From IMG/VR virus record IMGVR_UViG_3300042507_006396, positions 1 through 28,671 of that record: DNA of 28,671 nt; one strand, 5' to 3'. The notes under the pieces were generated by a model that searched no databases, was not told the origin of the DNA, and was given only the letters and a program-made list of their open reading frames with translations. Of this stretch, positions 1,396 to 24,314 are shown piece after piece. Within the stretch, counting starts at the first letter, position 1; every line of letters starts with the position of its first letter. The position numbers were made by a program, and so were the translations under genes. The stretch comes from a virus.

Positions 1396-1800
1396 TTAAT
1401 ATCGTACCATAAAAATATCATCATGTCCAAAATTAGAAAGATCGGGTCTTAATTTAAATCCAAATTTTTTATAAAAATTAATTAAATCCTGTTGAGACAT
1501 ATCACTTTTAATATTATAATGTCCACCAACTGATGCTCTTAAAGCTACAGGCATTCCTTGTTTTTCAGCATATTCAATAGCACTTTGAATAATCTTAGAT
1601 CCGTATCCTTTTCCTTGATACTCTGGTTTAATATATATATCATTAATGAATAGAGCTTCTTCTCTATCAGACATAGTTTCAAGACCAAATTCAATATTTC
1701 CGTAACTTTGTTTTACAGTTATGTAATCACCAGCATCGTAAAATTCAGAGGCTCTACTCCAATCAATATTTTCTTTTAGTATATCTATTAGCTTTATCAT
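1396..1800 (-). CDS. GNAT acetyltransferase with hydrophobic-x-E leader
   Basis: A 134-aa Gcn5-related N-acetyltransferase. The acetyl-CoA binding motif A is seen as IKPEYQGKGYG (Q62 to G67), preceded by the strand LFINDIY, and motif B as NFYKKFGF (residues 108-115). The substrate cannot be told from sequence. The first ten residues, MIKLIDILKE, lie outside the GNAT core and match the leader of two other genes here (9446 and 10296). Leader length and the terminal I-L-K-E resemble T4 capsid-targeting sequences cut by the prohead protease, so the enzyme may be packaged and injected (inference). It follows the ribonucleotide reductase gene after a 74-nt gap with no clear terminator. Confidence 0.85.
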   Translation of the reverse strand: MIKLIDILKENIDWSRASEFYDAGDYITVKQSYGNIEFGLETMSDREEALFINDIYIKPEYQGKGYGSKIIQSAIEYAEKQGMPVALRASVGGHYNIKSDMSQQDLINFYKKFGFKLRPDLSNFGHDDIFMVRY

Positions 1801-1874
1801 TTATATGAATTTATATGGTCCGTTATATTTTTAATAGTACCCCTCAATAAATATATAAAAGATCACAATCACCA

Positions 1875-4169
1875 TCAGAATACCACTTCGCAGGAATTAT
1901 CTTTTCCATTGCAAGAGGCCGCACCCATAGTATCTATATCCACATACTGTGGTTCTTTGAGGATTTCCACAAAATCTGTGTTTTTGAATTTTCTATTAAT
2001 TTCTTCCCATTTATGCAAAAGATGAACATCTTTTAAACAATAAATCATTTTTTGCAAATCTTTTTTAAAATAATTTTTAGCAAATCTCTTAGCACTTTCT
2101 ACCCACAATTTTTTTAAGAGTACTTGTTCCCTAGTTCCACTGAATAATTTGTCTCTGTCTAAAATATAATCACAAGCGTCCCATAAATTCCCTCCAAAAT
2201 AATGTAATCCATCTACAATTAAACCAGAAGCAAACATTGCTCCTCTTCCATATTTTTGATTTATTTCTTCAAACGTTAGAACTGAGGTGTTGGGTGATTG
2301 ATTCCAATCTTTATCACCAAATAATGATAAAAAAGATACAGCGGTGAAATTATCCTGCCCTTCATATAGGTAATTTATTATCGATTCATAATCATCTATA
2401 ATAACTGTATTAGATACATTATGACATAGGGTTGGGATGATACATCTATCTTCAGTTTTTCCTTCTTTTACCCAATTTTGTTGAACTAATTTTATTAATT
2501 CTAAATGTTTTATTCCTTGAAGATCATTTTTATATAAAGTACCTTTATTATTTTCAATGGGTACAAATACAGCCCAATCTGATTTAGTTTCTGAATATAC
2601 GCTTTCTTCGAGAAGAAAATCCATATTCTCAGACAAATATTTAGCTGTTTCTGTTTCCTTATTAAGTTGCATTACTCTAAAATATTTCTCTGAGTGTTCT
2701 GGATGTATCCCAGAACCACAACCCAAAATTACGGATGCATTTCCACTAGGTTTTACTGTAGTTATTCTAGCTGAGGGATTTATATATATTAAATTTGCTA
2801 CTTCTTCATTTGTTTTTTTAGCCATTTGTGCTGCTTCTTTTAATACTTCAGCATTAAATAACCAAGGTTGATTAGTCCAACCTGTTATAGAAACTCCCAA
2901 TAATGCTTCTTTTTCTGTGATTGCTATACTTTCATATAAAACATCTTTAATATGTTTAAAGTCAGTAAATCCAGCTTGTAATGTTCCTGCAACCGTAGCA
3001 TATTTAACAGCTTCGAGGAGTGTTTTTTTATCTTTCATTAATGAACCATTAATTTCAGTTAAATTACATCCTTGTATTCCGGTTCTAAAGGTGGGTTCAT
3101 CTAATAATGTTTCATCTGAATTCATTACTCTTTCGATTATTGATTTATCATTCCAATCGAAATATAAGGGGGCGAAGTGAATTTCAAAACATGGGTTCAA
3201 AACTTCATATATATTATTCATAAATACAAAACCTATATCCGAAATCCCATTATTTAATTCAACAAGATATTTGAATTCTTCTTTAGTAAATTTATGACGC
3301 ATTAATCCAACTGAATTATTTGATCTTTCTCTTTGTTTATTTGTATTTCTCCAATTCCCTGTCTTAGCATTTACCATATCTTCATCACCTTGAGATATAA
3401 TTACGCTACATGCTGCTCTTCTAATTCCTCCACTTAATACAGCATTTGCTAAATGCATAAAGAAATCATATGCTATAATACTTTTAAATGATTTTGGGAT
3501 TTCTTCAACATATGCTTCCATCATTTCCTCAATCTTTTCAAAAGATTGTTTAATACCATTAGGTCCTGGGGCTTTATATTTTTTAGCAATTTTAGAACCC
3601 TTAGGTCTAATTGATGAATAATCAAATTTTATTTGATATCCTTGGTACTCTTCAAAACCGGAGATAGGATTTTCGGATAAATAAGATGATATTAAAACAT
3701 GGGCCGCGTCTGACCAACCTTCTATACTATCTTGAATGATATAAGTTTTAGTACCTTTTAATCTTTTTTGTATTTTAGGTAAACGATTAATAAAGGGTTG
3801 CATCATATTTACTCCTACCCCACACCCACATAATAATAAGTAAAATGCATTCCCTAAAAATGAAGGTTTATCTGCAAACATAACAACACAATTATACATT
3901 TTAAAATTATGTTGAAACATATTTTCTCCCCTAAATTGTAAAGATCTTTGAGATGTTAAATATTTTTTATCAAAATAAAATTTTTCAGCATTATCTATAT
4001 ATTCTACTAATTTATCATTATGTAAATAATCTTTATATTTTATTCGATGAGTATTAAAAACATCTTTTGTTGCTTCCTCCCAAGTCTCATATCTATCTAA
4101 TTTATCATTCCATCCTAAAAAGTCCGAATATAATTTTAAATCAGAAAGAAATTGTCGTCCGTTATTCAT
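1875..4169 (-). CDS. nrdJ: Adenosylcobalamin-dependent (class II) ribonucleotide reductase
   Basis: A 764-aa enzyme making deoxyribonucleotides for phage DNA synthesis, of the monomeric B12-dependent type. Motifs in order: first redox cysteine in KMYNCVV (C94), GCGVGVN near 115-121, the active-site loop NPCFEI (radical Cys327, Glu329), GCNLTEI with the second redox cysteine (C368), TTVKPSGN (471-477), and a C-terminal cysteine pair CNGKDNSC (C753, C760) expected to re-reduce the active site. About 40 residues separate NPCFEI from CNLTEI, more than in the Lactobacillus enzyme as I recall it. The start follows the helicase stop by 13 nt, so it belongs to the replication operon. No small subunit or activase is needed for this class, and none is present. 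Confidence 0.93.
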   Translation of the reverse strand: MNNGRQFLSDLKLYSDFLGWNDKLDRYETWEEATKDVFNTHRIKYKDYLHNDKLVEYIDNAEKFYFDKKYLTSQRSLQFRGENMFQHNFKMYNCVVMFADKPSFLGNAFYLLLCGCGVGVNMMQPFINRLPKIQKRLKGTKTYIIQDSIEGWSDAAHVLISSYLSENPISGFEEYQGYQIKFDYSSIRPKGSKIAKKYKAPGPNGIKQSFEKIEEMMEAYVEEIPKSFKSIIAYDFFMHLANAVLSGGIRRAACSVIISQGDEDMVNAKTGNWRNTNKQRERSNNSVGLMRHKFTKEEFKYLVELNNGISDIGFVFMNNIYEVLNPCFEIHFAPLYFDWNDKSIIERVMNSDETLLDEPTFRTGIQGCNLTEINGSLMKDKKTLLEAVKYATVAGTLQAGFTDFKHIKDVLYESIAITEKEALLGVSITGWTNQPWLFNAEVLKEAAQMAKKTNEEVANLIYINPSARITTVKPSGNASVILGCGSGIHPEHSEKYFRVMQLNKETETAKYLSENMDFLLEESVYSETKSDWAVFVPIENNKGTLYKNDLQGIKHLELIKLVQQNWVKEGKTEDRCIIPTLCHNVSNTVIIDDYESIINYLYEGQDNFTAVSFLSLFGDKDWNQSPNTSVLTFEEINQKYGRGAMFASGLIVDGLHYFGGNLWDACDYILDRDKLFSGTREQVLLKKLWVESAKRFAKNYFKKDLQKMIYCLKDVHLLHKWEEINRKFKNTDFVEILKEPQYVDIDTMGAASCNGKDNSCEVVF

Positions 4170-4182
4170 ATTTGTTTATTTA

Positions 4183-5556
4183 TTATTTATTTAATTCAAA
4201 AAATTTATTTTTTAAAAGCTGTTTATCAAATTTATCAAAGTCACTATCAAACTTTTTAGTAGCTGGTTTATTGTCTTCATCATCTTCTGGATTATATTCT
4301 TCTTCAATTTCTATATAACCTCTAGATGTATCTATTTTAGCATTATATGTCATACCATCTGCACCATATCTATTTTTCATAATGTGAATTCTACCTGTTC
4401 CATTAACTTTATCTTCTTTTTTTCTTGAGAGGGTTAAGCATAGGTCAGAAATCATAATTTTATCATAACTTCCGGCCGCTGCTGTGCCTTCTATAATATT
4501 TTCTTTAGCTCCTGTTCTATTAACCTGGGATACGGACCATACAGGTAAATTTAATTCTCGAGCTAATCCTTTAGTACTGATATAAATATCATCAATTTCT
4601 TCTTTTCTTTCCCTATTTTTTCTTTTTGATGAAAGTAAGTCAACATAATCTATAATAATTAAATCTGCTTTAAATCCTAGATCCTCACATTTTTTAACAT
4701 GGCTTTCTAGAGTAGAAATACTTGCTTTTCCTGGAGTGTATTCTTTTATAATTAATTTACCTGGGAGTTCTGTTACTGTTTCTTCTACTTTTATTTTAAA
4801 ATTTTTAAGTTTATCTACAGGAATACCTGTAAAAAAAGCATCATATCTTTTTCCAACATAATCTTCTCCTAATTCTAAAGTATAATGCACTACATTATAT
4901 CCTAATTGAACAGCACATCCTCCTAATGCTACTAAAGCCCATGACTTACCACCTCCAGGATTACCAAATACTAAACCAAAATCTCCATTCCCTAAACCTC
5001 CTTGTATTAATTCATTTATTTTACCCCAAGGAGTTGGAATAATAACTCTATTTTCTTCTCTATATCTAGATTCAGTGTCTTTATCATATTCATGACCTAT
5101 GTTTTTATCTTGTCCTGCTTTAAGAGCGCTATCAATCAAGAATCTAATAGAATCATATTCTCCACCCTTAAGTAAATCTACTGATTCTAATAATGCTCTT
5201 TTTAATTGTTGGTTTTTACAAAAACCTGAAAATTCATTTTCAATATATTCTAAATCATCTTCAGATGCTGAATAAGATTGCTTTAATTGTTCTTTAATAG
5301 CAATTTGAAGTACATCGTTTGTTATCTTCTTCATTTCTACTTTCAGAACTTCCATTGTTGGTGGGCAATGGTATTCACTATAATATTTTAAAATTTGACC
5401 TACAATCCATTTTGAAGCTTGAGTACTGAAATATTCATCAGTTAAAACATCATGTATTGATAGTAAAAATTTTTTATGTGTTAATAGTGAAGATATTACT
5501 TTAGTTTGGAAAGAGGGTCCGTATTCCTCTAAAGAATTTAATCTTGTCGTTGTCAT
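4183..5556 (-). CDS. Replicative DNA helicase, DnaB / T4 gp41 family
   Basis: A 457-aa hexameric helicase that unwinds DNA ahead of the phage fork. Residues 10-130 form the helical DnaB-type N-terminal domain. The RecA-like motor follows, with Walker A GNPGGGKS (198-205), the catalytic glutamate region HYTLELG (224-230), Walker B LIIIDYVDLL (D303), and the WSVSQVNR sensor (about 335-345). The C-terminus is acidic then basic (EEEYNPEDDEDNKPATKK), a likely flexible tail for primase or SSB contacts. Gaps of 13 nt on both sides place it tightly between the FEN nuclease and the reductase. No primase gene is in the window. Confidence 0.92.
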   Translation of the reverse strand: MTTTRLNSLEEYGPSFQTKVISSLLTHKKFLLSIHDVLTDEYFSTQASKWIVGQILKYYSEYHCPPTMEVLKVEMKKITNDVLQIAIKEQLKQSYSASEDDLEYIENEFSGFCKNQQLKRALLESVDLLKGGEYDSIRFLIDSALKAGQDKNIGHEYDKDTESRYREENRVIIPTPWGKINELIQGGLGNGDFGLVFGNPGGGKSWALVALGGCAVQLGYNVVHYTLELGEDYVGKRYDAFFTGIPVDKLKNFKIKVEETVTELPGKLIIKEYTPGKASISTLESHVKKCEDLGFKADLIIIDYVDLLSSKRKNRERKEEIDDIYISTKGLARELNLPVWSVSQVNRTGAKENIIEGTAAAGSYDKIMISDLCLTLSRKKEDKVNGTGRIHIMKNRYGADGMTYNAKIDTSRGYIEIEEEYNPEDDEDNKPATKKFDSDFDKFDKQLLKNKFFELNK

Positions 5557-5569
5557 AACTTTTATTTTA

Positions 5570-6595
5570 TTATTTTAAATATAAAAAATTTTCTTTAATC
5601 CAAAAATCTACATTTTTAATTATTTTTCCTAATTCGTCTTCATTATACATTCGTATAAATTCTTCAGGTTCAAAAGATAATTCATCACACTCAATTGCTG
5701 ATTGTAGATCTTCTATATCTTGCTCACTTACTAAAGGTTTACTTAGATCCATAACTTTATACTTGCTCTCTATCTCATTTCGCTCCATCAATATTCGAGC
5801 ATATACAACATGGTCTTTAAGTTTTTCTTCACATATATCAAATATATCTTGAAGTGATAAATTTCTTTCTTTTAATTCCGGGAATTTTTTTAAAAGTCCT
5901 TTTTCACCTAATCCTTTAATTCCTTTTACATTATCTGAGTTATCACCAAGAAGTGTTTTCTGTAGGATAAAGTTATGTGGTGTAAGTTGAAACTTATCAA
6001 TTACAGTCTGTGGCGTATAATATTCTTTTTCAACGGGACGATAGACTGTGATGTTATTGGTGACTAGCTGAAGGAAGTCTTTATCTGCGGATACTATAAA
6101 TGATTTATTATTTGGATTTGATGATATCTGTTGACTCAAACAAGCTAAAATATCATCTGCTTCTACTTTAGGAATACTTAGTACTTTAATAGGTAAACAT
6201 TCCAAATAATGCATCAAACGTACTATTTGATTAATTTTAGAATCATGTTCTTCCTCAATATCATCAAAAATATCCCAATTAGTAATTCTATTAATATTTC
6301 GACTTGATTTATATTCAGGAATCATATTTTTTCGACTAGCTGAAGATCCAGGACCATCAAAAACAACATATACAGATGTAGGTTTTATTTCTTTGACTAA
6401 TGTTCCTAATGATCTAAGAAAACCACCTAAACCCCCGATATGAACTCCATGGCTATTTATTAGATTTAAAATTGCAAAGTTTCTAAAAAATAGATTGAGA
6501 CCATCAATTAATAGTACTCTTTCATGTTTATTAGGAATTGAGTCTGTGTTTTCTTGGACTTCATTCAAGAGTTTAAGTAAATTTTTATTTTTCAT
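5570..6595 (-). CDS. 5'-3' flap exonuclease / RNase H (FEN family)
   Basis: A structure-specific nuclease (T4 RNase H-like) that removes RNA primers and flaps. The PIN/FEN core shows the metal-binding acids in order: LLIDGLN (D31), VVFDGPG (D80), VEADDIL (E145, D147, D148), SADKDF (D171, D173) and LGDNSDN (D218, D221), followed by the helix-hairpin-helix GIKGLGEKG. I choose the ATG at 6595, giving 341 aa, because it follows the uvsX stop by one base (TAG T ATG). A longer frame from 6667 would add 24 residues that only re-read the end of uvsX. Residues 1-25 before the core are a short charged extension. Confidence 0.92.
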   Translation of the reverse strand: MKNKNLLKLLNEVQENTDSIPNKHERVLLIDGLNLFFRNFAILNLINSHGVHIGGLGGFLRSLGTLVKEIKPTSVYVVFDGPGSSASRKNMIPEYKSSRNINRITNWDIFDDIEEEHDSKINQIVRLMHYLECLPIKVLSIPKVEADDILACLSQQISSNPNNKSFIVSADKDFLQLVTNNITVYRPVEKEYYTPQTVIDKFQLTPHNFILQKTLLGDNSDNVKGIKGLGEKGLLKKFPELKERNLSLQDIFDICEEKLKDHVVYARILMERNEIESKYKVMDLSKPLVSEQDIEDLQSAIECDELSFEPEEFIRMYNEDELGKIIKNVDFWIKENFLYLK

Positions 6596-6596
6596 A

Positions 6597-7685
6597 CTAT
6601 TCTTTAATAGATTCCAATATATCAGAAATATTTTCTCTTTCATCCCACTCACTCGAGTCTTCAACAATCAATATATCCCCATCTACTTCTTCAAACCAAT
6701 TACGTGAATATTCTTTTTTATATTTAGCTATTGAATTATCAGTATCAGGAATAAAACCATGAGGAGTAACAATTACTGTTGATTGAGTAGCTATTCCTAT
6801 TCCTGTGTGAATTTTATCTATTGCTATTTTGGTTCTTTTAGCAAATTCTACATTCTTTTTATCTTTAACAGCTTTGATTTTAGATGTTCCACTATTAGTT
6901 ATGTTACCAAAGGTTATTACTAAAGTTGCATCCCAATACATAGCATCTCCTCCTTTATTTGTCATTTTTGGTCTTCCCATGGGTGATTCAGCGGGTTGTA
7001 CTCCAACTTTATTAATAATAAAGAATGTATTTGTATAAGGATAATTAGATTTACGAGACATTGTGAATTTTTGATTCACAAAATTACCAAATTGAGTAGC
7101 CATAGCTCCTGCATTCCATTGAGGGTTGTTACTTTTAGCTTCAACACTCATTTTACATGGAATTGAACCAACGGAGTCCCATAAAAAGCAAAGATCATAA
7201 GGTAAATTCCCTTTCTTTTGTTCATCTAATATATCCAATATAAATGCTGATACATCTTCTATAACATTAATTGTTGATCTATCTACATACATAAAAAAAC
7301 CTTCGTAATTTATGTTTGTTGGATCCTCGGGATCTATTATTCTATTTAATTCAAATCCCATTTGAGCAGCATGTTCAAAATCCCACTTCATTTCAGTTAT
7401 TATGAATATAGGAAGAATTCCTTGTTTTTGAGCATTTATAGCTGTCTCAATTAATAGTGTTGTTTTACCAGAGTCTGATCTTCCCCTAGCTATAGTTAAA
7501 TGACCCATTGGAATTCCTTCTATAGAAAGAGCATCTTGAATAGGTTTACTGAATGGGATAAATTTCTGTTCTTTGAACTTTACATTATTGTCTAATCCTT
7601 TTTTCTCCTTGAATTTATCAAGTGAGAATTTTGATTTAAGTTCTTCCCCTACCGCTTCTGTGAGCGACTTTTTTGTTTTTGCCAT
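6597..7685 (-). CDS. uvsX: RecA-like recombinase, UvsX
   Basis: A 362-aa strand-exchange ATPase for recombination-dependent replication and repair. Walker A is GRSDSGKT (68-75), the catalytic Glu lies in ITEMKW (E98), and Walker B is LCFLWDS (D170). The segment GAMATQFGNFVNQKF is a RecA L1-region feature, and residues 205-290 hold the variable DNA-binding loops. The N-terminus (1-40) is charged and probably the polymerisation arm. The gene sits between the SSB and FEN genes, with a strong hairpin in the short gap after the SSB stop. The start has an A-rich leader and no Shine-Dalgarno. Confidence 0.93.
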   Translation of the reverse strand: MAKTKKSLTEAVGEELKSKFSLDKFKEKKGLDNNVKFKEQKFIPFSKPIQDALSIEGIPMGHLTIARGRSDSGKTTLLIETAINAQKQGILPIFIITEMKWDFEHAAQMGFELNRIIDPEDPTNINYEGFFMYVDRSTINVIEDVSAFILDILDEQKKGNLPYDLCFLWDSVGSIPCKMSVEAKSNNPQWNAGAMATQFGNFVNQKFTMSRKSNYPYTNTFFIINKVGVQPAESPMGRPKMTNKGGDAMYWDATLVITFGNITNSGTSKIKAVKDKKNVEFAKRTKIAIDKIHTGIGIATQSTVIVTPHGFIPDTDNSIAKYKKEYSRNWFEEVDGDILIVEDSSEWDERENISDILESIKE

Positions 7686-7698
7686 AAATTTTAGTTTT

Positions 7699-7726
7699 AA
7701 TTGGGGGCTAAATCACCCCCCTAATT
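7699..7726 (-). other. Hairpin between SSB and uvsX
   Basis: An inverted repeat with AATT and five G:C pairs around an 8-nt loop (one bulged base) fills most of the 45-nt gap. On the minus strand it is followed by AAAACTAAAA, not a T-run, so it is not a classical terminator. It could trim or protect the abundant SSB message or lower read-through into uvsX; this is inference. Confidence 0.5.
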
Positions 7727-7730
7727 GTTA

Positions 7731-8564
7731 TTAGTCTTTTTCAAACAGATCATCAAATTTTGACTTATTATCTTTTTTAGTAGTAGATAAAGTATAATTT
7801 GATGCAGGTTTAGATTTTGCTGTAGGTTTATCCCAAGGTAAATCTGTTGTTGGAGGTATTACTTCGTCTTCTTCCTCCTCTTCCTCAACTTCCTCATCCG
7901 GTGCTAACCAGCTTTGTAATGCACTTTTCATTTCATCAAATGTATAACGTTTAAACGCTTCAGATGGATCAGGTTGATTGTTTAAGAATTTTTCAATTTC
8001 TTCTTTAGTTGAAGCTAGTGGAGAAATCTTTGTTTTAGGACGAATAGATGATTTATTATAAGCAGTTCCTGTAGTTTCTGGTCCTACTGTATCTACTGTA
8101 AAATCTCTACCTTCTGCAACGTCAGTAAAATCCTGAATGTCTTCATCATCAGCCATTGATAAGAATTCCATATATACTTCTTTACCAAATTGCCATAAAC
8201 GAACCCCTTTATCTTCTTCACCACGTACAATTACAGGAGCGAATACTCTTAATTTTGGTTCTAATTTTTTAGCTAATCTCCAATCTTCTTTATCGCTTGA
8301 TTTACGTAATTGTTTTACGAATTCAGCAATTGGATCTTTTTCACCCCAAGAAAGTGGAGAAAGCATCATCTTGTTTCCAATACCATAATAAAAGAATAAT
8401 TCTTTGAATGGGGTTTTGTCGTCGAATTTTGACGGAACAATTCTAATTGTTTGTTTTCCGATAGATGGCTTCCAATATAATTTTTCATAATCCACTTTAG
8501 AACCACCTTTGTTGTTCTTTGAATTCATATTAGAAAGCTTCTGTCTAATTGTGTTTAAATCCAT
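7731..8564 (-). CDS. Single-stranded DNA-binding protein, T4 gp32-like
   Basis: A 277-aa SSB that coats single-stranded DNA and recruits UvsX and helicase. The N-terminal basic segment (NSKNNKGGSK, about 14-23) is in the place of the gp32 B-domain that gives cooperative binding. The middle has the OB-fold core with YWKPSIGKQTIRIVPS (about 30-45) and FFYYGIG. The C-terminus carries an acidic run (EEVEEEEEEDE, about 225-235) and ends in FDDLFEKD, the usual protein-interaction tail. The protein has no cysteine, so the zinc site of T4 gp32 is absent. It is the first gene behind promoter P3. Confidence 0.88.
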   Translation of the reverse strand: MDLNTIRQKLSNMNSKNNKGGSKVDYEKLYWKPSIGKQTIRIVPSKFDDKTPFKELFFYYGIGNKMMLSPLSWGEKDPIAEFVKQLRKSSDKEDWRLAKKLEPKLRVFAPVIVRGEEDKGVRLWQFGKEVYMEFLSMADDEDIQDFTDVAEGRDFTVDTVGPETTGTAYNKSSIRPKTKISPLASTKEEIEKFLNNQPDPSEAFKRYTFDEMKSALQSWLAPDEEVEEEEEEDEVIPPTTDLPWDKPTAKSKPASNYTLSTTKKDNKSKFDDLFEKD

Positions 8565-8598
8565 GTTTAATAACTTTTTTTTGTTTATAATATACTTT

Positions 8599-8632
8599 AA
8601 TGTAATAACCTATTTTTGGGAAGCCAAATATT
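8599..8632 (-). promoter_or_regulatory. Promoter P3 for the replication operon
   Basis: On the minus strand AATATTTGG (8624-8632), a 19-nt spacer and TACATT (8599-8604). The upstream box and spacer length equal those of P1, P2 and P4. It lies about 35 nt before the SSB start. No GTCATA boxes are present upstream. Confidence 0.5.
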
Positions 8633-8678
8633 TTTATTGAGAAAGAGTATTTTATATATAATAAATATCGCCTAAATT

Positions 8679-9446
8679 TTAGTTTAATTTTTTATAATCT
8701 ACAATATCAGTTTCTAAAGCTTTTGAAAAAGTATATAAAGCATCCTCCTTACTTCTACCTTCTCCTTCAGGTTCAACACTAAATTCAACAGGTTTAAATT
8801 TTATATTACCTTCAATTTTATCATATTTCCACCACCTGCCTTTTTTAGTAACTGATATTTTTGCTGTATTTCCATTAGCATCTGTTACGTTGTAAATGTA
8901 AGATATAATAGGTTCAACAAATTCTCCTTTTTTTAATTGAATTGGTGCGTGTTTCCATTGATTTAAATTTTTAGGAAAACCAAACCCATATTCACTGTAT
9001 AAGTAGTTTAAAAAGTCTTTATCCTTTTTTATCATTATATCACTATAAAATTCAAAGGTACCATTATCTTTAAGTGAATTATTTACTGTTGTAGCAAATG
9101 ATTTAACATTATCTAAGTTATATACTAATTGAGCAGCTATAATTTTATTTGCTTTTGGAAAGCTATAAGGTTGATTTAAATTATATTCAACATATATTTT
9201 TTCATCTTTTATCTCACCTGGTTCTTTAGCAAATTGTTCTATGGGAATGTTATCTACTATAACAATATTTTTTTCAGGGTAATAATTAGTTTCACCACCC
9301 CCCATATCATATATTAGATTTGAGATTTTTGATAATATTCCTATTGGAACTTTATTATAAGTTCTATCTGATTTTACAATATATACCTCAGGAGTTAAAG
9401 GTCCTGTATTGTCGTATTCCTTTAAAAGGTCTAAAAGTTTTATCAT
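8679..9446 (-). CDS. Unknown 255-aa protein with hydrophobic-x-E leader
   Basis: No domain is recognised in the body. The first ten residues, MIKLLDLLKE, form the same leader as the LRR protein just upstream, and the 25 bp covering its start (9423-9447) are identical to 10273-10297. The mature part would begin YDNTGPLTPEVYIV. The C-terminal region (about 180-255) reads like a small beta-rich domain: VTDANGNTAKISVTKKGRWWKYDK, then KFKPVEFSVEPEGEGRSKEDA. The leader resembles a T4-type capsid-targeting sequence, so head packaging is likely (inference). The gap to the LRR gene is 13 nt; the gene is the last of the polymerase transcript. Confidence 0.75.
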   Translation of the reverse strand: MIKLLDLLKEYDNTGPLTPEVYIVKSDRTYNKVPIGILSKISNLIYDMGGGETNYYPEKNIVIVDNIPIEQFAKEPGEIKDEKIYVEYNLNQPYSFPKANKIIAAQLVYNLDNVKSFATTVNNSLKDNGTFEFYSDIMIKKDKDFLNYLYSEYGFGFPKNLNQWKHAPIQLKKGEFVEPIISYIYNVTDANGNTAKISVTKKGRWWKYDKIEGNIKFKPVEFSVEPEGEGRSKEDALYTFSKALETDIVDYKKLN

Positions 9447-9447
9447 T
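9423..9447. repeat. 25-bp leader repeat, copy 1
   Basis: Identical to 10273-10297. It covers the start codon and the first eight codons (MIKLLDLL) of the 255-aa protein. The genes diverge completely after the leader. Confidence 0.9.
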
Positions 9448-9459
9448 AGTTGGTTATGT

Positions 9460-10296
9460 CTATGTATAAATATTACCTTTTACTCCGGGAACCATTTTTT
9501 TAATTTCTTCTTCGGAATATTTTTTACTTATTGGAGTATCTAATAAATCAAGATTACCTCCAACCGTTAAACCATTTGGCAATGAGGTAATTTTAGTATT
9601 TCTTAAATCAAGATTACCTCCAACCGTTAAACCATTTGGCAATGAGGTAATTTTAGTATTTCTTAAATCAAGATAGCCACCAACCGTTAAACCATTTGGC
9701 AATGAGGTAATTTTAGTATTTGCTAAATCAAGATAGCCATCAACCGTTAAACCATTTGGCAATGAGGTAATTTTAGTATTTGCTAAATCAAGATAGCCAT
9801 CAACCTTTAGACCATTTGGTAATGATGTAATTGGAGTATTTACTAAATTAAGATTACCCCCAACTTTTAAATCATTTGGTAATGATGTAATTGAAGTATT
9901 TCTTAAATAAAGATCACCTCCAACCTTTAGACTATTTGGTAATGATGTAATTGGAGTATTGGATAAATAAAGATCACCTCCAACCGTTAAACCATTTGGT
10001 AATGATGTAATTTTGGTACGATTTAAATTAAGATAGCCACCAACCGTTAGACCATTAGGTAATGAGGTAATTTTGGTACCATATAAATTAAGATAGCCAC
10101 CAACCGTTAGACCATTTGGTAATGATGTAATTGGGGTATTTCTTAAATCAAGATCACCTTTATCTCCATCCTTCATGTACTGTTCAATCTTTTTTTGGGT
10201 AGCAATTGCAAAATTTTGTTGACGTTCTTCAGGGGAACGTCTAGGTTTGAGAATGTTTAATTTTTCTTCGCGTAAAAGGTCTAAAAGTTTTATCAT
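9460..10296 (-). CDS. Leucine-rich-repeat protein, ten 20-residue repeats
   Basis: A 278-aa protein. After the leader MIKLLDLLREE and a charged helix (about 20-45) come ten tandem repeats of consensus ITSLPNGLTVGGYLDLRNTK, then a short cap ending MVPGVKGNIYT. The LP-containing 20-residue unit belongs to the bacterial LPX-type leucine-rich repeats (as in YopM/IpaH), which form curved binding surfaces. No catalytic domain is attached, so it looks like a pure binding module. The hydrophobic-x-E leader suggests packaging in the head and delivery to the host (inference). A TATAAATA sequence lies just upstream on the minus strand. The partner is unknown. Confidence 0.85.
   Translation of the reverse strand: MIKLLDLLREEKLNILKPRRSPEERQQNFAIATQKKIEQYMKDGDKGDLDLRNTPITSLPNGLTVGGYLNLYGTKITSLPNGLTVGGYLNLNRTKITSLPNGLTVGGDLYLSNTPITSLPNSLKVGGDLYLRNTSITSLPNDLKVGGNLNLVNTPITSLPNGLKVDGYLDLANTKITSLPNGLTVDGYLDLANTKITSLPNGLTVGGYLDLRNTKITSLPNGLTVGGNLDLRNTKITSLPNGLTVGGNLDLLDTPISKKYSEEEIKKMVPGVKGNIYT
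9541..10140. repeat. Tandem array, ten 60-bp units
   Basis: Ten in-frame 60-bp units encode the LRR. The units at 9547-9600 and 9607-9660 are identical, and those at 9661-9780 differ at a few bases. Units at 9781-10140 are more diverged (GATGTAATTGGAG in place of GAGGTAATTTTAG). Homogeneity therefore rises toward the C-terminal end, a sign of recent expansion or conversion there. Confidence 0.95.
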
Positions 10297-10297
10297 T
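10273..10297. repeat. 25-bp leader repeat, copy 2
   Basis: Identical to 9423-9447. It covers the start and first eight codons of the LRR gene. Confidence 0.9.
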
Positions 10298-10311
10298 GAA
10301 TTTATTTATAT

Positions 10312-10782
10312 CTACAGACTAATGATCTTATAAATTTTAGTATCTAGTCTTTTTAATTCACCCTGTTGAGTTAACAAAATGCAATTTCTGTAGTTATTCC
10401 AATCTATAACAAATTTAGAATCTAACATTCCATTGTTTAGACTTTTGATTAGCTGATTTAGAGCGTTTATTGAATATAAACTATTTGTTTCTTTTTTTCT
10501 ATGAACTAAGATGGTATTTTCAGGAATATCAGATATATTTCCAAGTTCAATATTATATGTTAATACATACTCATCGTTAGTTTTGATATGCAATGCAAAT
10601 ATCTTCCCGTATAATACGTTATATTTACTTTGAATCGATTCTATTAAATCCTCTATTTTATCTACTTTAGTAAAAGTACAAAACAATTTGTTTTGAATGT
10701 TCATATTGGGGTCGTATAAGTCATAATCATATGTCGTACCATACATATTAATAGAACTATCAAAAATCGAGTTTTGATTCAT
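10312..10782 (-). CDS. Unknown protein after the DNA polymerase, 156 aa
   Basis: No family with known function is recognised. It starts MNQNSIFDSSINMYG and has a central segment YNVLYGKIFALHIKTNDEYVLTYNIE, then ILVHRKKETNSLYSINALNQLI and a C-terminal DWNNYRNCILLT. No membrane segments or signal peptide are seen. It begins 5 nt after the polymerase stop, so it is co-transcribed and perhaps co-translated with it; a role linked to replication is possible but not shown. It has no hydrophobic-x-E leader. Confidence 0.75.
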   Translation of the reverse strand: MNQNSIFDSSINMYGTTYDYDLYDPNMNIQNKLFCTFTKVDKIEDLIESIQSKYNVLYGKIFALHIKTNDEYVLTYNIELGNISDIPENTILVHRKKETNSLYSINALNQLIKSLNNGMLDSKFVIDWNNYRNCILLTQQGELKRLDTKIYKIISL

Positions 10783-10787
10783 AAATT

Positions 10788-12047
10788 TTATTTTAAATTG
10801 TTATAATTGTAACCTGTTTTAATTTTGACATCGAATTTATATGTTTTAAATATTTCCAATATTTTATCTATCAAATCTTCTTCATCTTCATCCAAATCTA
10901 ATAAAAATGCATCGTAAGTAAAAAGTATTAGTTTTGTATTTTTACCTCTTAATATTTTTAACATATCCCATATAATGTTAATATTTGTTGAAGTTTCAGT
11001 CGTCTGAAGTAGATAGTTCAGTAACTTATTTGGGTTCATATTTTCCAATTTATCTTTGTAAAACTTCCATCCACTTGTTTTATCTTCAATAAATCCTTCA
11101 TTCTGAAATTGTTCCCATAATTTATCTTTAAAGTGTTGAAGACGTGAAAAAAATTCTACATTTTTATATTCTTCAAAAATATTACCATTAAGGTTTTTAA
11201 ATACTATTTTTTTAGCTTCATCATAACTTACATTACATTCTTCCACAATTTCATGATATATGTTCTTATCTCCAAAATCATAACCCATAAGTTTACTAAT
11301 TAGGGTAGGATGGAATGCTGATAAGTCTATTTCTACTAATTTATCATTTCTAGGAATAAATGCTTCTCTACTTCCGTTCTCCTTATTTAAGGCAGCATAA
11401 TTTACACCCCCAAATCTGTTGGCTGGTCTTCTTGTTGTAGTCTTAAAGTTGTATTGACTATATACGTAGTCGGCATCAACATGATAGAAGTGGTCTTTGA
11501 ATTTTTCTCTTTGTATTCGTAAACCATTCCGTTCAATTGCGTTAAACACCAAGGATGCTCTATTATTATAGAATAAGTTAATTGGTTCATTTATTTTTTC
11601 TTTTAAATCGTTAAATATTTTTTCACAAACTTCATAATGTTTGGATATAGGTATAATCTTATTAAGATCATCAATATGTTGATAATTACGATAAAAATAA
11701 TCATGAGCTGAGGTTGTGGGTCTCTCATAAATGTGTTCTAATGTGATATCAACTATATTCGGGTGTATAAGGTAGTGTAAAAACTCTTTCTTATCTCGTA
11801 CATATATTTTATTGATCTTATTAATAACCGTTGATATAGCGTTTATACTTAATTGTAATGTATCATTATGTTCTACACATAACATATAACCTTTACTATT
11901 GTTTATTGGTTTAATATAAATTAAGGATATGTTATTTATTGTTGGATGAATGTAATCATTAAATGGGATTATTTCAACAAACGCTTCTTCAATCTCTTTA
12001 TAGTAAAATTCCTTTAATTGTTCATAATTCTCAATAATGTAAAACAT
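10788..12047 (-). CDS. Short divergent family A DNA polymerase
   Basis: A 419-aa protein. The C-terminal half shows family A polymerase landmarks: TTTRRPANRFGGVNYAAL (203-220, the position of the TGRxS motif), motif A KLVEIDLSAFHPTLI with D241, a motif B-like helix AKKIVFKNLNGN (278-289), and motif C LILFTYDAFLLDL with D379. The usual motif A Glu (DYSQIE) is His here, giving an HPT segment reminiscent of family B. The N-terminal 190 residues are where a 3'-5' exonuclease would lie, but no DxE, YxxxD or similar metal motif is visible, so proofreading is probably absent or encoded elsewhere. It is the first gene behind promoter P4. Confidence 0.72.
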   Translation of the reverse strand: MFYIIENYEQLKEFYYKEIEEAFVEIIPFNDYIHPTINNISLIYIKPINNSKGYMLCVEHNDTLQLSINAISTVINKINKIYVRDKKEFLHYLIHPNIVDITLEHIYERPTTSAHDYFYRNYQHIDDLNKIIPISKHYEVCEKIFNDLKEKINEPINLFYNNRASLVFNAIERNGLRIQREKFKDHFYHVDADYVYSQYNFKTTTRRPANRFGGVNYAALNKENGSREAFIPRNDKLVEIDLSAFHPTLISKLMGYDFGDKNIYHEIVEECNVSYDEAKKIVFKNLNGNIFEEYKNVEFFSRLQHFKDKLWEQFQNEGFIEDKTSGWKFYKDKLENMNPNKLLNYLLQTTETSTNINIIWDMLKILRGKNTKLILFTYDAFLLDLDEDEEDLIDKILEIFKTYKFDVKIKTGYNYNNLK

Positions 12048-12063
12048 ATCTTATAACCTTTAT

Positions 12064-12095
12064 TCAGATAATGATAATATAATTATCTCAGATAA
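12064..12095. promoter_or_regulatory. Repeated TTATCTGA sites overlapping P4
   Basis: On the minus strand TTATCTGA occurs twice (12088-12095 and 12064-12071), 24 bp apart. The first copy is part of a 13-bp palindrome TTATCT-C-AGATAA at 12083-12095. The sites lie in the spacer and around the -10 of P4, a good place for a repressor. Confidence 0.4.
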
Positions 12096-12104
12096 CCAAA
12101 TATT
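12071..12104 (-). promoter_or_regulatory. Promoter P4 for the DNA polymerase
   Basis: AATATTTGG (12096-12104), 19-nt spacer, then TATCAT (12071-12076) on the minus strand, 24 nt before the polymerase ATG. It has the same -35-like box and spacing as P1 and P3; the -10 is weaker. Confidence 0.45.
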
Positions 12105-12109
12105 CTACA

Positions 12110-12154
12110 ATAAAAAGGAAATCCGAACTAGGTAGCGATACTTTGTTCGGATTT
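12110..12154 (-). terminator. Rho-independent terminator after the leader-protein operon
   Basis: A perfect 10-bp stem AAATCCGAAC / GTTCGGATTT (12119-12128 with 12145-12154) has an inner loop that can pair further. On the minus strand it is followed by CCTTTTTATTG. It ends the 13226-12216 transcript before P4. Confidence 0.8.
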
Positions 12155-12195
12155 GTCACCTGTTGGGTAACTATAACGGGCCCTAAGTTCCGTAT
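12155..12195 (-). other. Structured stretch with 23S rRNA-like words
   Basis: A small hairpin, GUUACC-caaca-GGUGAC on the minus strand (12155-12171), abuts the terminator. Next to it the plus strand reads GTAACTATAACGG then CCCTAAG (12167-12186), very close to the universal 23S rRNA helix 69 segment. The function is unknown. Confidence 0.35.
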
Positions 12196-12215
12196 GTTGT
12201 TGTTTTTATTTTTAA

Positions 12216-12602
12216 TTAATAATCATCATCATCGTCATCATCGTTATCTTCCCAATTAAATACAATGTCTTCCATTACATCGTAAGCCTTATCTTCGGCT
12301 TCTTTTTGGGTTTTGAATGGTCCTGTACCTTCCTCGTCTTCAAAATCACCAAAGCTAAGATATCCATCTACCCAAAATCCCTCCTCATCTTTCACAACTA
12401 CTACAGTATCCGAATTATTTGTATCCCACCCATCCATAGGTGCTGTATAGGCAGCTAGTACTTTTCCATTATATGTTTCGTCGTCTTCTTTAGTAGGTGT
12501 ATATGGCGTGAAACCTTTTGGATATTTTTCTTGACCTTCATTAATAATTCCTGCTAATTTTTGCATACGTTGGAATTGTTCGCTTAGTATTTGTTTTTTC
12601 AT
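12216..12602 (-). CDS. Small acidic protein with hydrophobic-x-E leader, 128 aa
   Basis: The body is not recognised. The N-terminus MKKQILSEQFQRMQKLAGIINE is an amphipathic, basic helix ending in I-N-E, of the kind proposed here as a head-targeting leader. The rest is acidic, with FWVDGYLSFGDFEDEEGTGPFKTQKEAEDKAYDVMEDI, and ends in an Asp run (EDNDDDDDDDY). After leader removal the product would be a small, very acidic protein, a common character of DNA-mimic or packaged phage proteins (inference only). It is the third gene of the P2 transcript and is followed by a terminator. Confidence 0.78.
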   Translation of the reverse strand: MKKQILSEQFQRMQKLAGIINEGQEKYPKGFTPYTPTKEDDETYNGKVLAAYTAPMDGWDTNNSDTVVVVKDEEGFWVDGYLSFGDFEDEEGTGPFKTQKEAEDKAYDVMEDIVFNWEDNDDDDDDDY

Positions 12603-12639
12603 TTTTGTTTAATTTGTTTGTTTTATTTGTTTGTTGTTT

Positions 12640-12945
12640 TTACAAACTAAGATTTTTATTATGTACAAGATTATCAATTAATTCATCAAAAGACCAATCT
12701 CTTAACGGCCTTCCCCCTCTACCGAAACTATACATATCATCACCTACTTTTTCAATAGTATACCAATTTTTTTGATTGCCGTTTGCATAGTAAGTTGTCA
12801 ACCATACTTTATCATCTTTTATAGATACATCACCCCATCTTGGTTTAAGCTTTTGAACTATTAAATTTAAATCACTATCTTCATTTTCTTTTAATACTTT
12901 ACGTACTTCTTCACGAATTAGTTTTCTGAATTCTGTTGCTTTCAT
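12640..12945 (-). CDS. Small protein with EVRKVLKE leader, 101 aa
   Basis: No known domain. It begins MKATEFRKLIREEVRKVLKE, a basic amphipathic helix ending in hydrophobic-x-E; the next gene upstream has nearly the same leader, with 27 identical bp (12886-12912 and 13167-13193). The body (about 21-101) contains LNLIVQKLKPRWGDVSIKDDKVWLTTYY, NWYTIEKVGDDMYSFG and RDWSFDELIDNLV, looking like a compact alpha/beta fold. It is likely expressed with its neighbours from P2 and probably packaged in the head (inference). Confidence 0.78.
   Translation of the reverse strand: MKATEFRKLIREEVRKVLKENEDSDLNLIVQKLKPRWGDVSIKDDKVWLTTYYANGNQKNWYTIEKVGDDMYSFGRGGRPLRDWSFDELIDNLVHNKNLSL
12886..12912. repeat. 27-bp leader repeat, copy 1
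   Basis: Identical to 13167-13193. It encodes EEVRKVLKE, the end of the leader, in the 101-aa gene. Confidence 0.9.
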
Positions 12946-12974
12946 TTTTTGTTTTTAATTGTTTTTAATTGTTT

Positions 12975-13226
12975 TTAATCTTCGTCTTCGTCATCATATA
13001 ATTCATCCGAGAATGAATCATAAACATCATTTGCTACATCTGAACTAAATTTAGAAAATGGTAAACTACCATCAGTTAATCCAACTAAAATCCGGATTAC
13101 ATCTTCAGGTTGATTTTCAACCATTATGCTCCAATATTCTTTAACCATATCATTGGTTGGTTTTTCTTCTTTTAATACTTTACGTACTTCTTCTTGTATT
13201 AGTTTTTTAAATTCTTGTTTTTTCAT
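12975..13226 (-). CDS. Small protein with EVRKVLKE leader, 83 aa
   Basis: Unknown body. The leader MKKQEFKKLIQEEVRKVLKE is followed by about 60 residues including MVKEYWSIMVENQPEDVIRILVGLTDGSLPF and an acidic end (DELYDDEDED). Cleavage after K-E would leave a helical, acidic small protein. It is the first gene behind promoter P2, with an A-rich leader and no Shine-Dalgarno. It is grouped with the two following genes by leader type, spacing (29-37 nt) and a shared terminator. Confidence 0.76.
   Translation of the reverse strand: MKKQEFKKLIQEEVRKVLKEEKPTNDMVKEYWSIMVENQPEDVIRILVGLTDGSLPFSKFSSDVANDVYDSFSDELYDDEDED
13167..13193. repeat. 27-bp leader repeat, copy 2
   Basis: Identical to 12886-12912, in the 83-aa gene. 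The remainder of the two genes differs. Confidence 0.9.
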
Positions 13227-13317: not shown

Positions 13318-13368
13318 GTTTTTATTTTATTTCATATAAATATATTAAAATTGAGTTAAAGTATCAAA

Positions 13369-14055: not shown

Positions 14056-17000
14056 TTATGAGCTAAATAGTGCCGCTTCTTCTTGTCGTCGTTGTATCAA
14101 TCCTCGGAGTATTTTTCCCTCAGATGTTATTGGTCCTTCTGCTATAAGTTGTGCTGCTAAAGCGTATTGTCCTGTTTGTACGCTAGTCTTGATTCTTTCT
14201 CTTAAACTACCAACATTATATACATAACTTATAAGTGCCGCTTTTTGTCTATCGCTTAATTTATCAAAAGCACCTTTAGTTATTTGGTTTTTACCTTTAC
14301 CTACTAACCTATTATAGTATGTAGTCTGTATTTCAAGTCTAAGAACGGTATCTGCATCGGCACGGGTTGTTGTATCTCCTGGTACTACCTTTCTTATTTT
14401 TCTACTTTTAGCATCAATGACCCTATCTGTACCATATCCCAAACGGTATGCGGTTGCGTCAAATCTTGCTTTTGGAAGGAATTGTTCTTTATATGAAATA
14501 TAATTAAAAGCAATTGTTACCCAATCTCCTCCATTATATGCATTTATATCTATTGGTGCCTTAGCAACTTCGGTATTAGTTGAAGTTGCAGTAAGTGGTG
14601 GTGTAGGTGGACTAATATATCCACTTCCTTCAGGATTTCTAGGCATCCCTAAAGATTCTATTACAGTAGTCCATTGATTGTTTTCTATATTATGTGTTAT
14701 TCCTTTAATAATAAAATCTAAACTTTCAGGATAATTTGTTGGCAAAAATTCTTGTTCTGAGGTATATTTTTGATAAATTTTAAATCCTGATAGACCATCC
14801 ATTGTTAGTTGGAGATTAATAGGGATAAAACCATTACCAGGAGATAATTTATATGGATTTTTTGTTTTATCTTCTAATACTGCAAGAGATTGATTAATAG
14901 AAGCTATAGTTTTATTTAGTTTTACTAAATCTTTTCCTATGTTTTTCATACTATCTATTAAATCAGTATCGCCTAAATCTTGATCACCATATACTGTTTT
15001 TAAAAATTTAACAACTGTTGAAGTAATAGGAATTACACTATTATAAAAATTACTAATTAATTGTTCTTTAGGATCATTACTAGTATCTATATTAGCATCA
15101 ATTATCTCGGGTTTCATTCTATCTGTTAAACCATAATTCATTTTAGATAAACATGTAGCATCTTCTCCAACAACTAACCCACGAGCTTGAGCCCCTACTG
15201 TTATCATAGTTGCAAAACTTGCTGGAATTTCTGTTCTAAATGAAAAATCTCTGATAAAACTAGCCTGTCCTCCACTTTCTTTATATCCAAACATATTGAA
15301 TTTAGCTAATTCTGGGCCATCTCCTACTGTTTGAACTGCTTTACCCTTAAAATCTTCTTTTTTTAGAAATGTATCTCTATCTGGGAGAGCTATTTCATCT
15401 ATAAAAATTATTTCATTATTTTCGTTTATAGTTGGAGTTAATTTATTATAATAACAAGTTGCTTCTGAGAATCCATCGCATATTGATTGTAAGAAATCTA
15501 ATAGTATTATGTTTCCCTCACTATCAACCATTGAATCCATCTTAGATAAGATCCAATTCATATTGAAATACACATTCATTAAATAAAGATAACGATTGTT
15601 ATTTTCAATAAATTCACCTTCTAAAAACATTTCACGTACAGAATATGATAATTGTTCTTCTGTAGCTTGTACAGCTTGGGTTACTTCTTTAGGTGGTTCA
15701 ATATTGGCTTTAATAGAAGATCTAACCTTTTCAAAATTAGAAGGAACAGGATCATTAATTATGTCTCCTAATTGTATTTCTTCACCACTAGCACCTGGAT
15801 CATCTCTTGATTGTTTTTCTGAAAATAAAATTATATTGTAGTTAAGTCCAGCTTCTGTAATATCTGCTTGTCTAGCAATAATACCATATTTCTCATAAGT
15901 ATTATCTATGATTTTTATTATTTCACTTATGTCTTTTAACTTTCCTTCTTCATTTAGAAAGGCTTTATTATTTAAAATAATATCAACATTATTTATAACC
16001 TCATTTACTTGTGTATTTGCAGTTTCATTTAAAGTTGTAGATAATGAAGTATTTGTTATACCTAATAATGGATTAACTATAGTAGTTTTAAAAACACATA
16101 TTCCAGGATCAGTAATTATTTGTCTTTGTTCTAGATGAATAATATTTGTTTTTGTATCAGTATTTAATAAAATAGTTGGAACAATTTTATTATTTTTCTT
16201 AATTTGGGGTATTAAATTTTGTTGAATCCAATCAAGTAAATATCCCAGTCTTATGTAATATATACTATTTTGGGGGTGAGTATCCCACCAAAACGCATGT
16301 TCTTTTTTGTTTTTCCATTTTATTTGACCATAATTTGCAGCAGCTCCACTAACAGGCTCTCCTCCTAATCTTTTCATTAAATCGTAAAAATGTTGTCCCA
16401 TTTTTGATTTTTTAGAATATACTTCCAAGGATTCTTCATTATCTTTAGGTTTAGGTTTACTATCAGATTTAGCATCAGTATAATCTAATTTTATATCACT
16501 TTTAATGTTTGATAAAGAAGTATTTATTTTAAGTGATTCAATAACATCTCCAACACTTCTAACAGTCAATGTTATATCGTAACTTAAATCTTTATTTACA
16601 GTCCAACTATAGTTTACAACTTTTCCTAAAACCGCATCATAATTACCAAAAAATTGTTTTCTTCTTAAGTCTATTATAGGTAATAAAGAATTATAGGTTA
16701 TAGGCGATCCAGTTTTATCTTTACCTGTTAAAAATAAACTTTCTAAAGTAGCCTGACCAAAAGTAGCATTACCATTAGCATCAACATCATTTTTTAATTT
16801 TCCATCATTATCATAAAACATACTATGTCCCCACTCTAATAAAACTGTATATCCTAATCTAAGATATAATAAATCAATAATATCAAATTGTTTTCTATTA
16901 TATGCTTTTATAACAATTGTAGAAGTTCTTAATGATCCTCTATTTTCTGTTTTTATATTTGCACTTACTATACCTGGCATTGGGCTTAGTCCATAATCTA

Positions 17001-23523: not shown

Positions 23524-23556
23524 AAAAAATCCTCCTATTTTTTTAAGATAGGAGGA
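23524..23556 (-). terminator. Terminator at the end of homing endonuclease 1
   Basis: A 9-bp stem TCCTCCTAT / ATAGGAGGA lies on the minus strand, followed by six Ts. The endonuclease stop codon (23535-23537) is inside the stem. Its 3' half, AAATAGGAGGATTTTT, nearly repeats the 3' half of the terminator at 24315-24353. Confidence 0.85.
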
Positions 23557-24314
23557 CAATTTTCTAAAAGAATTTTTTTAACTATACTGATGTTATTGTT
23601 AATATCATTTTCCCAAAAACGTAACATTTTATATCCGTTATCTTGAACCCACTTATTCTTTTTTTCATCGTTAATTGAATTTTTAATCTGGCACTTATAT
23701 GTAGGACCATCTGGGTATTTTGTAGGATTGGAATGCCAAAAATCTCCGTCTACTTCTATTAGTATATTATAATCTGGGAGATAGAAATCATAAAATGCTC
23801 TGATTTCTTTAATATAGAATGATTGAGAGTAGTTTATATTTAAGAGAGTTAATATATTAGCAAACGTTTTTTCTAGTTTGGATTGATTATATTTTTTCTT
23901 TCCTATCTCTCCGGTTTCCCATTTATTTTTAGCAGTTTCGCTCATCTTTTTACGAGTTTCTTCAGATTGAACTCTTCCTACTCCAAATCCCTCAGGTTTA
24001 GGTTTAGGTATACCTTTAGCTCCTTGTGATATTTTTTTACCTAATTCAACATTGTCTCTATCTTTAACCGCTTGTTTTATATGATCATATTCACCTGAGG
24101 TGAATTTTTCTTTGCGTGTTTTGATAATAGCTTGTACTCGTTTTTCAGATTTAGGATCTCCAAAATGTCCTGGGACACGAGATTGGTGACCATGTATCCA
24201 TTTACAGAAGTCTTTTAGTTTGGCTTCATATCTTGTTTGGGTGCCGCACCCACACAAACATGTGGGATGTATTCCGTTATATTTTTCCTGTATTATTTTG
24301 TCTTTCTTGAGCAT
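23535..24314 (-). CDS. Homing endonuclease, Vsr/DUF559-like with NUMOD3 repeats
   Basis: A 259-aa free-standing homing endonuclease. The N-terminus has a cysteine cluster CLCGCG (C19, C21, C23) with a further Cys37 and His residues, likely zinc binding. Residues about 110-135 (SEETRKKMSETAKNKWE) are a NUMOD3 DNA-binding unit. The nuclease core has FYDFYLPDYNILIEVDGDFWH with D176, E187, D189 and H194, then NDEKKNKWVQDNGYKMLRFWEND. It sits between tail tube and gp26-like genes, both intact. The ATG begins immediately after the T-run of the upstream terminator, with GGGGG of that stem in Shine-Dalgarno position. Confidence 0.85.
   Translation of the reverse strand: MLKKDKIIQEKYNGIHPTCLCGCGTQTRYEAKLKDFCKWIHGHQSRVPGHFGDPKSEKRVQAIIKTRKEKFTSGEYDHIKQAVKDRDNVELGKKISQGAKGIPKPKPEGFGVGRVQSEETRKKMSETAKNKWETGEIGKKKYNQSKLEKTFANILTLLNINYSQSFYIKEIRAFYDFYLPDYNILIEVDGDFWHSNPTKYPDGPTYKCQIKNSINDEKKNKWVQDNGYKMLRFWENDINNNISIVKKILLENCPPILKK

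Follow-up and report, generated by a model that had tools for sequence, protein, structure and literature searches.

Leader peptides on unrelated proteins of a T4-like phage group as candidate prohead-targeting propeptides

Introduction

Why should six proteins with unrelated bodies, encoded in one stretch of phage DNA, open with short leaders that end in hydrophobic-x-Glu? The stretch is IMG/VR record IMGVR_UViG_3300042507_006396, a stand-alone virus record of 28.7 kb (28,671 nucleotides, the whole of which we call the window). It comes from a T4-like phage, a relative of Flavobacterium phage immuto, and covers a fragment of the genome. An earlier note on this DNA had read the leaders as one shared capsid-targeting-like element on a set of head-packaged, injected effectors.

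Phage T4 provides the comparison. In the accessible parts of PMC9026906 and PMC3012670, ten N-terminal residues, the capsid-targeting sequence (CTS), are described as sufficient for targeting, with cutting to follow, and the T4 internal proteins as diverse counter-defence proteins in which only the targeting sequence is conserved. T4 gp21 cleaves after L/I-x-E and takes 65 residues off gp23, according to the accessible part of PMC9026906, which also states that an Asp at CTS position 10 prevents processing while leaving targeting intact. Judged by sequence, the leaders studied here are quite likely to be interchangeable prohead-targeting propeptides that a gp21-type prohead protease cuts.

Results

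All six open reading frames (ORFs), at 1800, 9446, 10296, 12602, 12945 and 13226, were present with the starts previously claimed for them, and their leaders are real. A single common leader was rejected, however: the window holds three sequence classes, and three to four exist in the phage group. Class 1 has the consensus MIKL(L/I)D(L/I)L(K/R)E. It occurs as MIKLIDILKE (1771..1800, minus strand, like all leaders and bodies given here for the window), with a predicted cut after Glu10, before a GNAT acetyltransferase body (PF00583; 1396..1770 including the stop codon); as MIKLLDLLKE (9417..9446) before the 245-residue body of a 255-aa protein (8679..9416), which weakly matches a methyltransferase-like fold; and as MIKLLDLLRE (10267..10296) before a leucine-rich-repeat (LRR) body (9460..10266) whose homologues carry class 1 or class 3 leaders. 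The class 2 leader, MKKQILSEQFQRMQKLAGIINE (12537..12602), matches the scaffold C-terminal tail of relatives and precedes a body without a family match (12216..12536). Class 3, with the consensus MKxxEFxKLIxEEVRKVLKE, is represented by MKATEFRKLIREEVRKVLKE (12886..12945) and MKKQEFKKLIQEEVRKVLKE (13167..13226). The bodies behind these (12640..12885 and 12975..13166) match no family and have homologues behind class 3 leaders, the first at loci L069 and L078 and the second at L079, L088 and L069. For the genes at 12602, 12945 and 13226 the ends had been quoted correctly, but the full leaders are 20-22 residues long. Class 4, built on FDLKKFLVENKL, is found in immuto and other relatives. A tandem leader that runs from class 3 straight into class 2 (MKKPELKQIIKEEIQKILSEQQKRMQKLAGINED) was seen at L124:13719-14006, which is position 108719 of G016. 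G016 is a 148.6-kb virus contig that is far nearer to the window than immuto is (its tail tube is 99% identical), and many of its ORF starts resemble those of window ORFs.

The leader patterns exceed chance and sit at N-termini. Among the 1037 called proteins of immuto and five virus records, N-terminal matches numbered 17 for class 1, 11 for class 2, 15 for class 3 and 6 for class 4, and no class had an internal match; the class 2 pattern otherwise matched just five C-termini, all of them scaffolds. Shuffled N-termini gave a mean of 0 to 0.16 matches per genome and a maximum of 2 in any shuffle. A class 1 match at G016 4692 is an exonuclease and was rejected as false. The search for further leader genes, which the earlier note had proposed, thus ended with 47 over six genomes or contigs (immuto 9, G016 21, G014 3, G001 5, G003 4 and G002 5). 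Leader proteins of immuto include gp083 and gp230, with a predicted cut after residue 22, gp231, with one after residue 10, and gp082, gp076 and gp077. Degenerate DNA patterns searched in IMG/VR found 61 stretches for MIKLLDLLKE, 10 for class 2 and 21 for class 3, and among the matches listed none lies more than 32 codons from the upstream stop, which places them at ORF starts.

Could the shared 5' ends be a DNA or RNA element, a recombination or translation signal that encodes similar peptides by accident? Copying would predict near-identical DNA, and the leaders at 9446 and 10296 are indeed nearly identical at that level, so one may be a recent copy of the other; the leader at 1800 differs. 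However, MIKLLDLLKE is encoded by 32 DNA versions across 56 locus-version pairs, which indicates that conservation acts on the protein. The class 2 motif also ends a long ORF, and in that place it can have no role in translation start. We consider such an element highly improbable.

That long ORF occupies the scaffold position, immediately before the major capsid protein (MCP) gene. In immuto it is gp067, which ends in ...QVSRWQKLAGIIK. Taking as scaffold the ORF directly upstream of the MCP in the best 80 of at least 591 MCP relatives, we found the C-terminus R-x-x-x-L-A-x in 73 of the 75 ORFs of at least 150 aa, with I replacing L in the other two. The motif was seen by eye in the five shorter, cut ORFs, giving R-x-x-x-(L/I)-A-x in all 80. 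Hydrophobic-x-Glu precedes the tail in 77/80 (a raw count), and the leader is alike in having ILSE before QFQRMQKLAG.

A profile built from 75 distinct scaffold tails, with no leaders included, was searched in 1066 proteins. It matched five scaffolds, followed by 12 leaders at N-termini (E 1.7e-7 to 0.034), among them that of the window's 12216-12602 protein at E=2.2e-7. Three further matches had E values of 0.27 to 0.92, and the best among reversed proteins was 0.96. The reciprocal profile, from 16 leaders, matched in 20 of 25 records. Its 28 matches comprise 19 scaffold tails, three unplaced ones and six leaders, at least two of which are rows of the profile itself. The class 2 peptide therefore forms the scaffold C-terminus and also opens many other proteins, where it gains -x-Glu. 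On this sequence evidence, class 2 is the scaffold's own C-terminal tail moved to the N-terminus of putative cargo. The N-terminus of the MCP or of the scaffold was rejected as a source of class 1, as profiles of those N-termini miss the class 1 leaders.

The end of most leaders is marked by a glutamate two residues past a mostly hydrophobic position. It was present in 74% of class 1 (47 body clusters), 81% of class 2 (26) and 92% of class 3 (54), in sets that hold some false entries and were collected with patterns that omitted the terminal Glu, the class 1 pattern including the hydrophobic position. Past this point, information drops from 2.65 to 0.79 bits in class 1 and from 3.76 to 0.86 in class 3; in class 2 it declines over about three residues (3.17, 1.72, 2.13 and 1.02 bits). 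In the structure model of the 255-aa protein, the predicted confidence score (pLDDT) falls below 50 in a single segment, residues 1-10.

A prohead protease gene and candidate capsid sites, for which the earlier note had proposed a search of the rest of the genome, were found in relatives. We chose 22 long leader-bearing records, many of them fragments, from immuto and the records behind L001-L095. Peptidase_S77, the gp21-type protease (gp070 in immuto), is present in 10/22 and an MCP homologue in 11/22, immuto being in both counts; immuto and G016 each carry the two. At least one of the group's MCP, tail tube, large terminase or baseplate wedge is present in 20/22, the wedge query having been applied to only the seven records left over after the other markers. 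The window RecA query matched nothing in seven records, which says little. In the MCPs, our initial search pattern placed V/I/L-x-E after QA(K/R)xx, near the expected cleavage site, in 80/80; a second, less strict one gave 78/80, as it picked up an earlier QA in two proteins. Glu59 was invariant in 7/7, and the mature MCP is predicted to start after it. Cutting of the leader after its terminal Glu is likely on these grounds.

The leaders might instead be helical docking peptides for another phage structure, such as the tail or baseplate, a replication compartment or a chaperone, the end Glu being merely a helix feature. A class-3-like helix (for example FKKLIKEAVREAVREE) opens a conserved baseplate-cluster gene, which encodes a head or tail protein (L073:32525-32944, which is immuto gp114; G016 79958; G001 101098; G003 24135; G002 70421), and three of the six window leader genes adjoin replication or nucleotide-metabolism genes. 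But class 2 matches the tail of the head scaffold, and three unrelated classes all lose conservation past hydrophobic-x-Glu, a rule that the MCP site obeys too. This makes docking elsewhere improbable.

We ranked 7-mers upstream of head and tail genes against those upstream of other genes in G016 and immuto, with leader genes excluded. Of 104 7-mers, ATTTATA and TATTTAT were the first and second most enriched. TATTTAT had first been spotted upstream of leader genes, so that its choice was not blind, and this ranking serves as the check. In the same two genomes it lies upstream of 35/104 structural genes (p=2e-9) and 13/30 leader genes (p=1.7e-6), compared with 24/301 others, mostly 10-40 bases before the start codon in both groups. 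Leader genes outside structural clusters have it in 10/23 (p=1.9e-5 against the same 24/301), and over six genomes it precedes 22/47 leader genes and 157/942 others. TATTTAT is thus a putative late promoter of structural and leader genes. In the window it occurs within 90 bases of the GNAT, 255-aa, tube, hub, tape-measure and 95-aa genes and is absent within 90 bases of the SSB and RecA genes. The longer ATATTTAT, late-promoter-like, stands upstream of the GNAT gene (1847..1854, minus strand) and of the 255-aa gene (9466..9473, minus strand). Another instance (13336..13343, minus strand), whose role is suggested by position alone, precedes the 13226-12216 leader cluster by about 110 bases. Reverse-complemented, TATTTATA reads as the late promoter of T4, TATAAATA.

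The bodies behind the leaders are diverse. The 196 distinct leader proteins form 108 body clusters at BLAST E 1e-4; three of these were false (an exonuclease, an HNH protein and a scaffold piece), and one member of each of the other 105 was used in family searches. The modularity that the earlier note had claimed holds, in that homologous bodies are found with different leader classes: LRR bodies and cluster 5 bodies each occur with class 1 or class 3, and the 255-aa body occurs behind class 1 or class 4. Its account of the six window bodies also stands. The GNAT body matches PF00583 (44.9 bits, cut-off 20.7), the LRR body matches PF12799 above the cut-off (39.6 bits), and for the remaining four neither Pfam nor PHROGs gave a match at E 0.01.

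Recognised bodies among the clusters are GNAT, LRR, gamma-glutamylcyclotransferase, Acb1-family, ADP-ribosyltransferase-like and methyltransferase-like, and most members match no family. The Acb1-family body scores 28.5 bits against a cut-off of 27, with one homologue below it at 20.7. Both HxT motifs are invariant in three Acb1-like homologues, and a PDB sequence search with the Acb1-like protein gave no match at E 1. The match to the polyvalent-protein ADP-ribosyltransferase is under its cut-off (28.4 compared with 31.2 bits), and P-loop bodies have a weak zeta-toxin match. Foldseek returned 79 matches at E <=0.001 for the 255-aa body (best E=2.5e-5). The 50 listed are either S-adenosylmethionine methyltransferases or enzymes of the methyltransferase fold; their TM-scores relative to the query, 0.26-0.40, are so low that we name no specific methyltransferase family. 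PADLOC, run over the 105 members, gave two families with one weak match each. The LRR body was rejected as a type III effector, as its NCBIfam matches are far under the cut-offs and probably come from the repeats. The label of effectors draws on homology of just a few bodies (Acb1-like, ADP-ribosyltransferase-like, GNAT and methyltransferase-like), while most bodies are unassigned.

The same data bear on a reading that keeps leader-driven targeting to the prohead core and takes the cargoes for structural or morphogenetic parts of it, like T4 gp67, gp68 and IPIII, instead of injected effectors. For IPIII, a role in head morphogenesis is suggested in the accessible part of PMC9026906. Some leader genes do lie between the protease and the scaffold, and few bodies have an assignable enzyme family. 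Against this, 108 clusters (three of them false) for 196 proteins is a very diverse set, and GNAT, Acb1-like, gamma-glutamylcyclotransferase and ADP-ribosyltransferase-like enzymes have no obvious role in a head. We regard a purely structural role as unlikely, though less so than the other alternatives.

Leader bodies also recur as domains of longer proteins. The 255-aa body is an internal module of 411-, 923- and 949-aa proteins (L311:1845-3080, L312:1179-3950 and L313:1215-4064). In L311 it is inserted into an immuto gp084-like protein, with LNE at the left boundary. The domains of the three proteins include a methyltransferase-like one and, by eye, deoxyribonucleotidase-like and HExxH-containing ones, with L-x-E joints. 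Hydrophobic-x-Glu lies within three residues of the boundary at 11 of 17 internal joints where 3.7 were expected; the joints are not independent, LRR bodies were excluded and one joint is a false entry scored as a match. This position suggests cutting by the prohead protease. Polyvalent proteins, as described in the accessible part of PMC5512222, are alike in that leader bodies recur as domains of 411- to 949-aa proteins and unlike in that the same bodies here also stand free behind cleavable-looking leaders. The six window proteins lack the multi-domain build: they measure 83-278 aa, and none has more than one recognised domain.

Several observations weigh against prohead-targeting propeptides as the explanation. 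The leader gene number is uneven, the 128-kb G014 having just three, and some leaders lack Glu at the expected place. Evidence of copying from a scaffold or MCP end is confined to class 2 and does not extend to classes 1, 3 and 4. The end of T4 gp22 is unlike the T4 leader, so T4 offers no precedent for copying of a scaffold tail. Five of the 25 records had no match to the 16-leader profile though the group's MCP is present in them, so that this profile misses some scaffold tails, and strict covariation of leader and scaffold tail within a genome was rejected: G033 (W/W) and G013 (LAN/LAN) agree, and G005 and G037 disagree. A Gp23 family search of the window's own record gave no match. To these belong the unblinded choice of TATTTAT and the class-3-like start of the baseplate-cluster gene. 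In the window just two of the six leader genes have TATTTAT within 90 bases, two tail-side genes (208 and 1098 aa) have none within that distance, and ATATTTAT is in no excess (14 copies over the whole window, 13.8 by chance). Finally, leader genes lie within head operons at just 8 of 46 loci with enough upstream DNA, counting all classes by the patterns used, so that a leader gene as a universal member of the head operon was rejected; such genes also occur in head operons of G002 and G013. In a small gene between portal and protease, outside this count, weaker amphipathic starts were seen by eye.

The rest of the window has the gene order tail tube, hub, tape measure, baseplate-side genes, SSB, RecA-like, exonuclease, DnaB and ribonucleotide reductase. 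The order in immuto, a cultured 160-kb T4-like phage with Flavobacterium sp. LMO8 as host, agrees when compared by eye. Positions 14056-17352 form one 1098-aa ORF, and its counterpart in G016 is split into two of 347 and 687 aa (142569 and 143615); the last 160 residues of the window ORF match annotated tape measures of unrelated phages. Amid the late tail genes lie three ORFs that look like homing endonucleases by eye, at 23535-24314 (minus), 24984-26468 (plus) and 26526-28145 (minus); G016 also has one of them (134430-135914).

Discussion

Our analyses point to leaders that very likely target proteins to the prohead. Late-made cargo would bind the partner of the scaffold tail (shell, portal or core) through its leader, each class serving as an interchangeable docking peptide. 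For class 2, the scaffold tail (gp22 position) would stand at the cargo N-terminus and the added -x-Glu would allow its release by cutting. Scaffold core and cargo would be enclosed together in the prohead; at maturation a gp21-type protease would cut after hydrophobic-x-Glu, and the freed cargo would stay in the head with the DNA. GNAT, methyltransferase-like, Acb1-like, ADP-ribosyltransferase-like and LRR cargoes would then probably be delivered to the next host and act there before phage gene expression. Injection of at least several cargoes is somewhat more probable than its opposite, by analogy with the T4 internal proteins and Alt.

The T4 system (IPI, IPII, IPIII and Alt, with gp21) is alike in its short N-terminal propeptides, L/I-x-E cut, unrelated bodies and head delivery, as far as the accessible parts of PMC9026906 and PMC3012670 describe it. 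At the level of sequence, the leaders appear to share the features of that system except homology of the leader. The T4 ipII and ipIII leaders are unlike classes 1 and 2 (judged by inspection, without an alignment score), and class 3 has only MK..EF..I.E in common with the T4 CTS, MKTYQEFIAE, again by inspection. The starts of T4 gp24 (MAKINELLRES) and alt.-1 (MELITELFD) are near class 1 in style. The earlier term, capsid-targeting-like leader, is thus backed by the protease gene, the MCP site, the scaffold-tail match and the late-type motif, and not by likeness of classes 1 and 2 to the T4 leader.

The T4 CTS is also unlike this phage group in having no counterpart to its three to four unrelated leader classes, and T4 has three internal proteins and Alt where one genome here, G016, has up to 21 pattern-positive leader genes. 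What is new relative to T4 is the several leader classes, a class 2 that matches the scaffold tail and the cargo gene number in G016. The SPN3US-type system, as described in the accessible parts of PMC5694885, PMC7411985 and PMC10052503, resembles the proposed one in having packaged head proteins that are ejected, and head proteins that a prohead protease cleaves. We found these leaders described nowhere in the literature searched, which did not extend to subscription journals and preprints.

A broader and tentative proposal, to which we give a little less than even weight, is that this large, mostly uncultured T4-like group may use an open address code. The end of a prohead protein (the scaffold tail R-x-Q-K-L-A-G-I-I) plus a protease site would package and free any late protein, with up to about 20 cargoes per genome that exchange leaders. 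Multi-domain proteins with L-x-E joints would be packaged as polyproteins and, still in the prohead and before injection, cut into separate effectors, including enzymes of the type that counters cyclic-oligonucleotide-based antiphage signalling (anti-CBASS).

If the main reading is right, a few readable tags would identify which proteins a large group of phages packages, and the leaders would give exact predicted N-termini of these proteins. The reading also suggests where a CTS may dock, at the site of the scaffold tail, and so touches on the general working of such sequences. Many orphan genes could then be ranked as candidates for effectors and counter-defences that act in the first minute.

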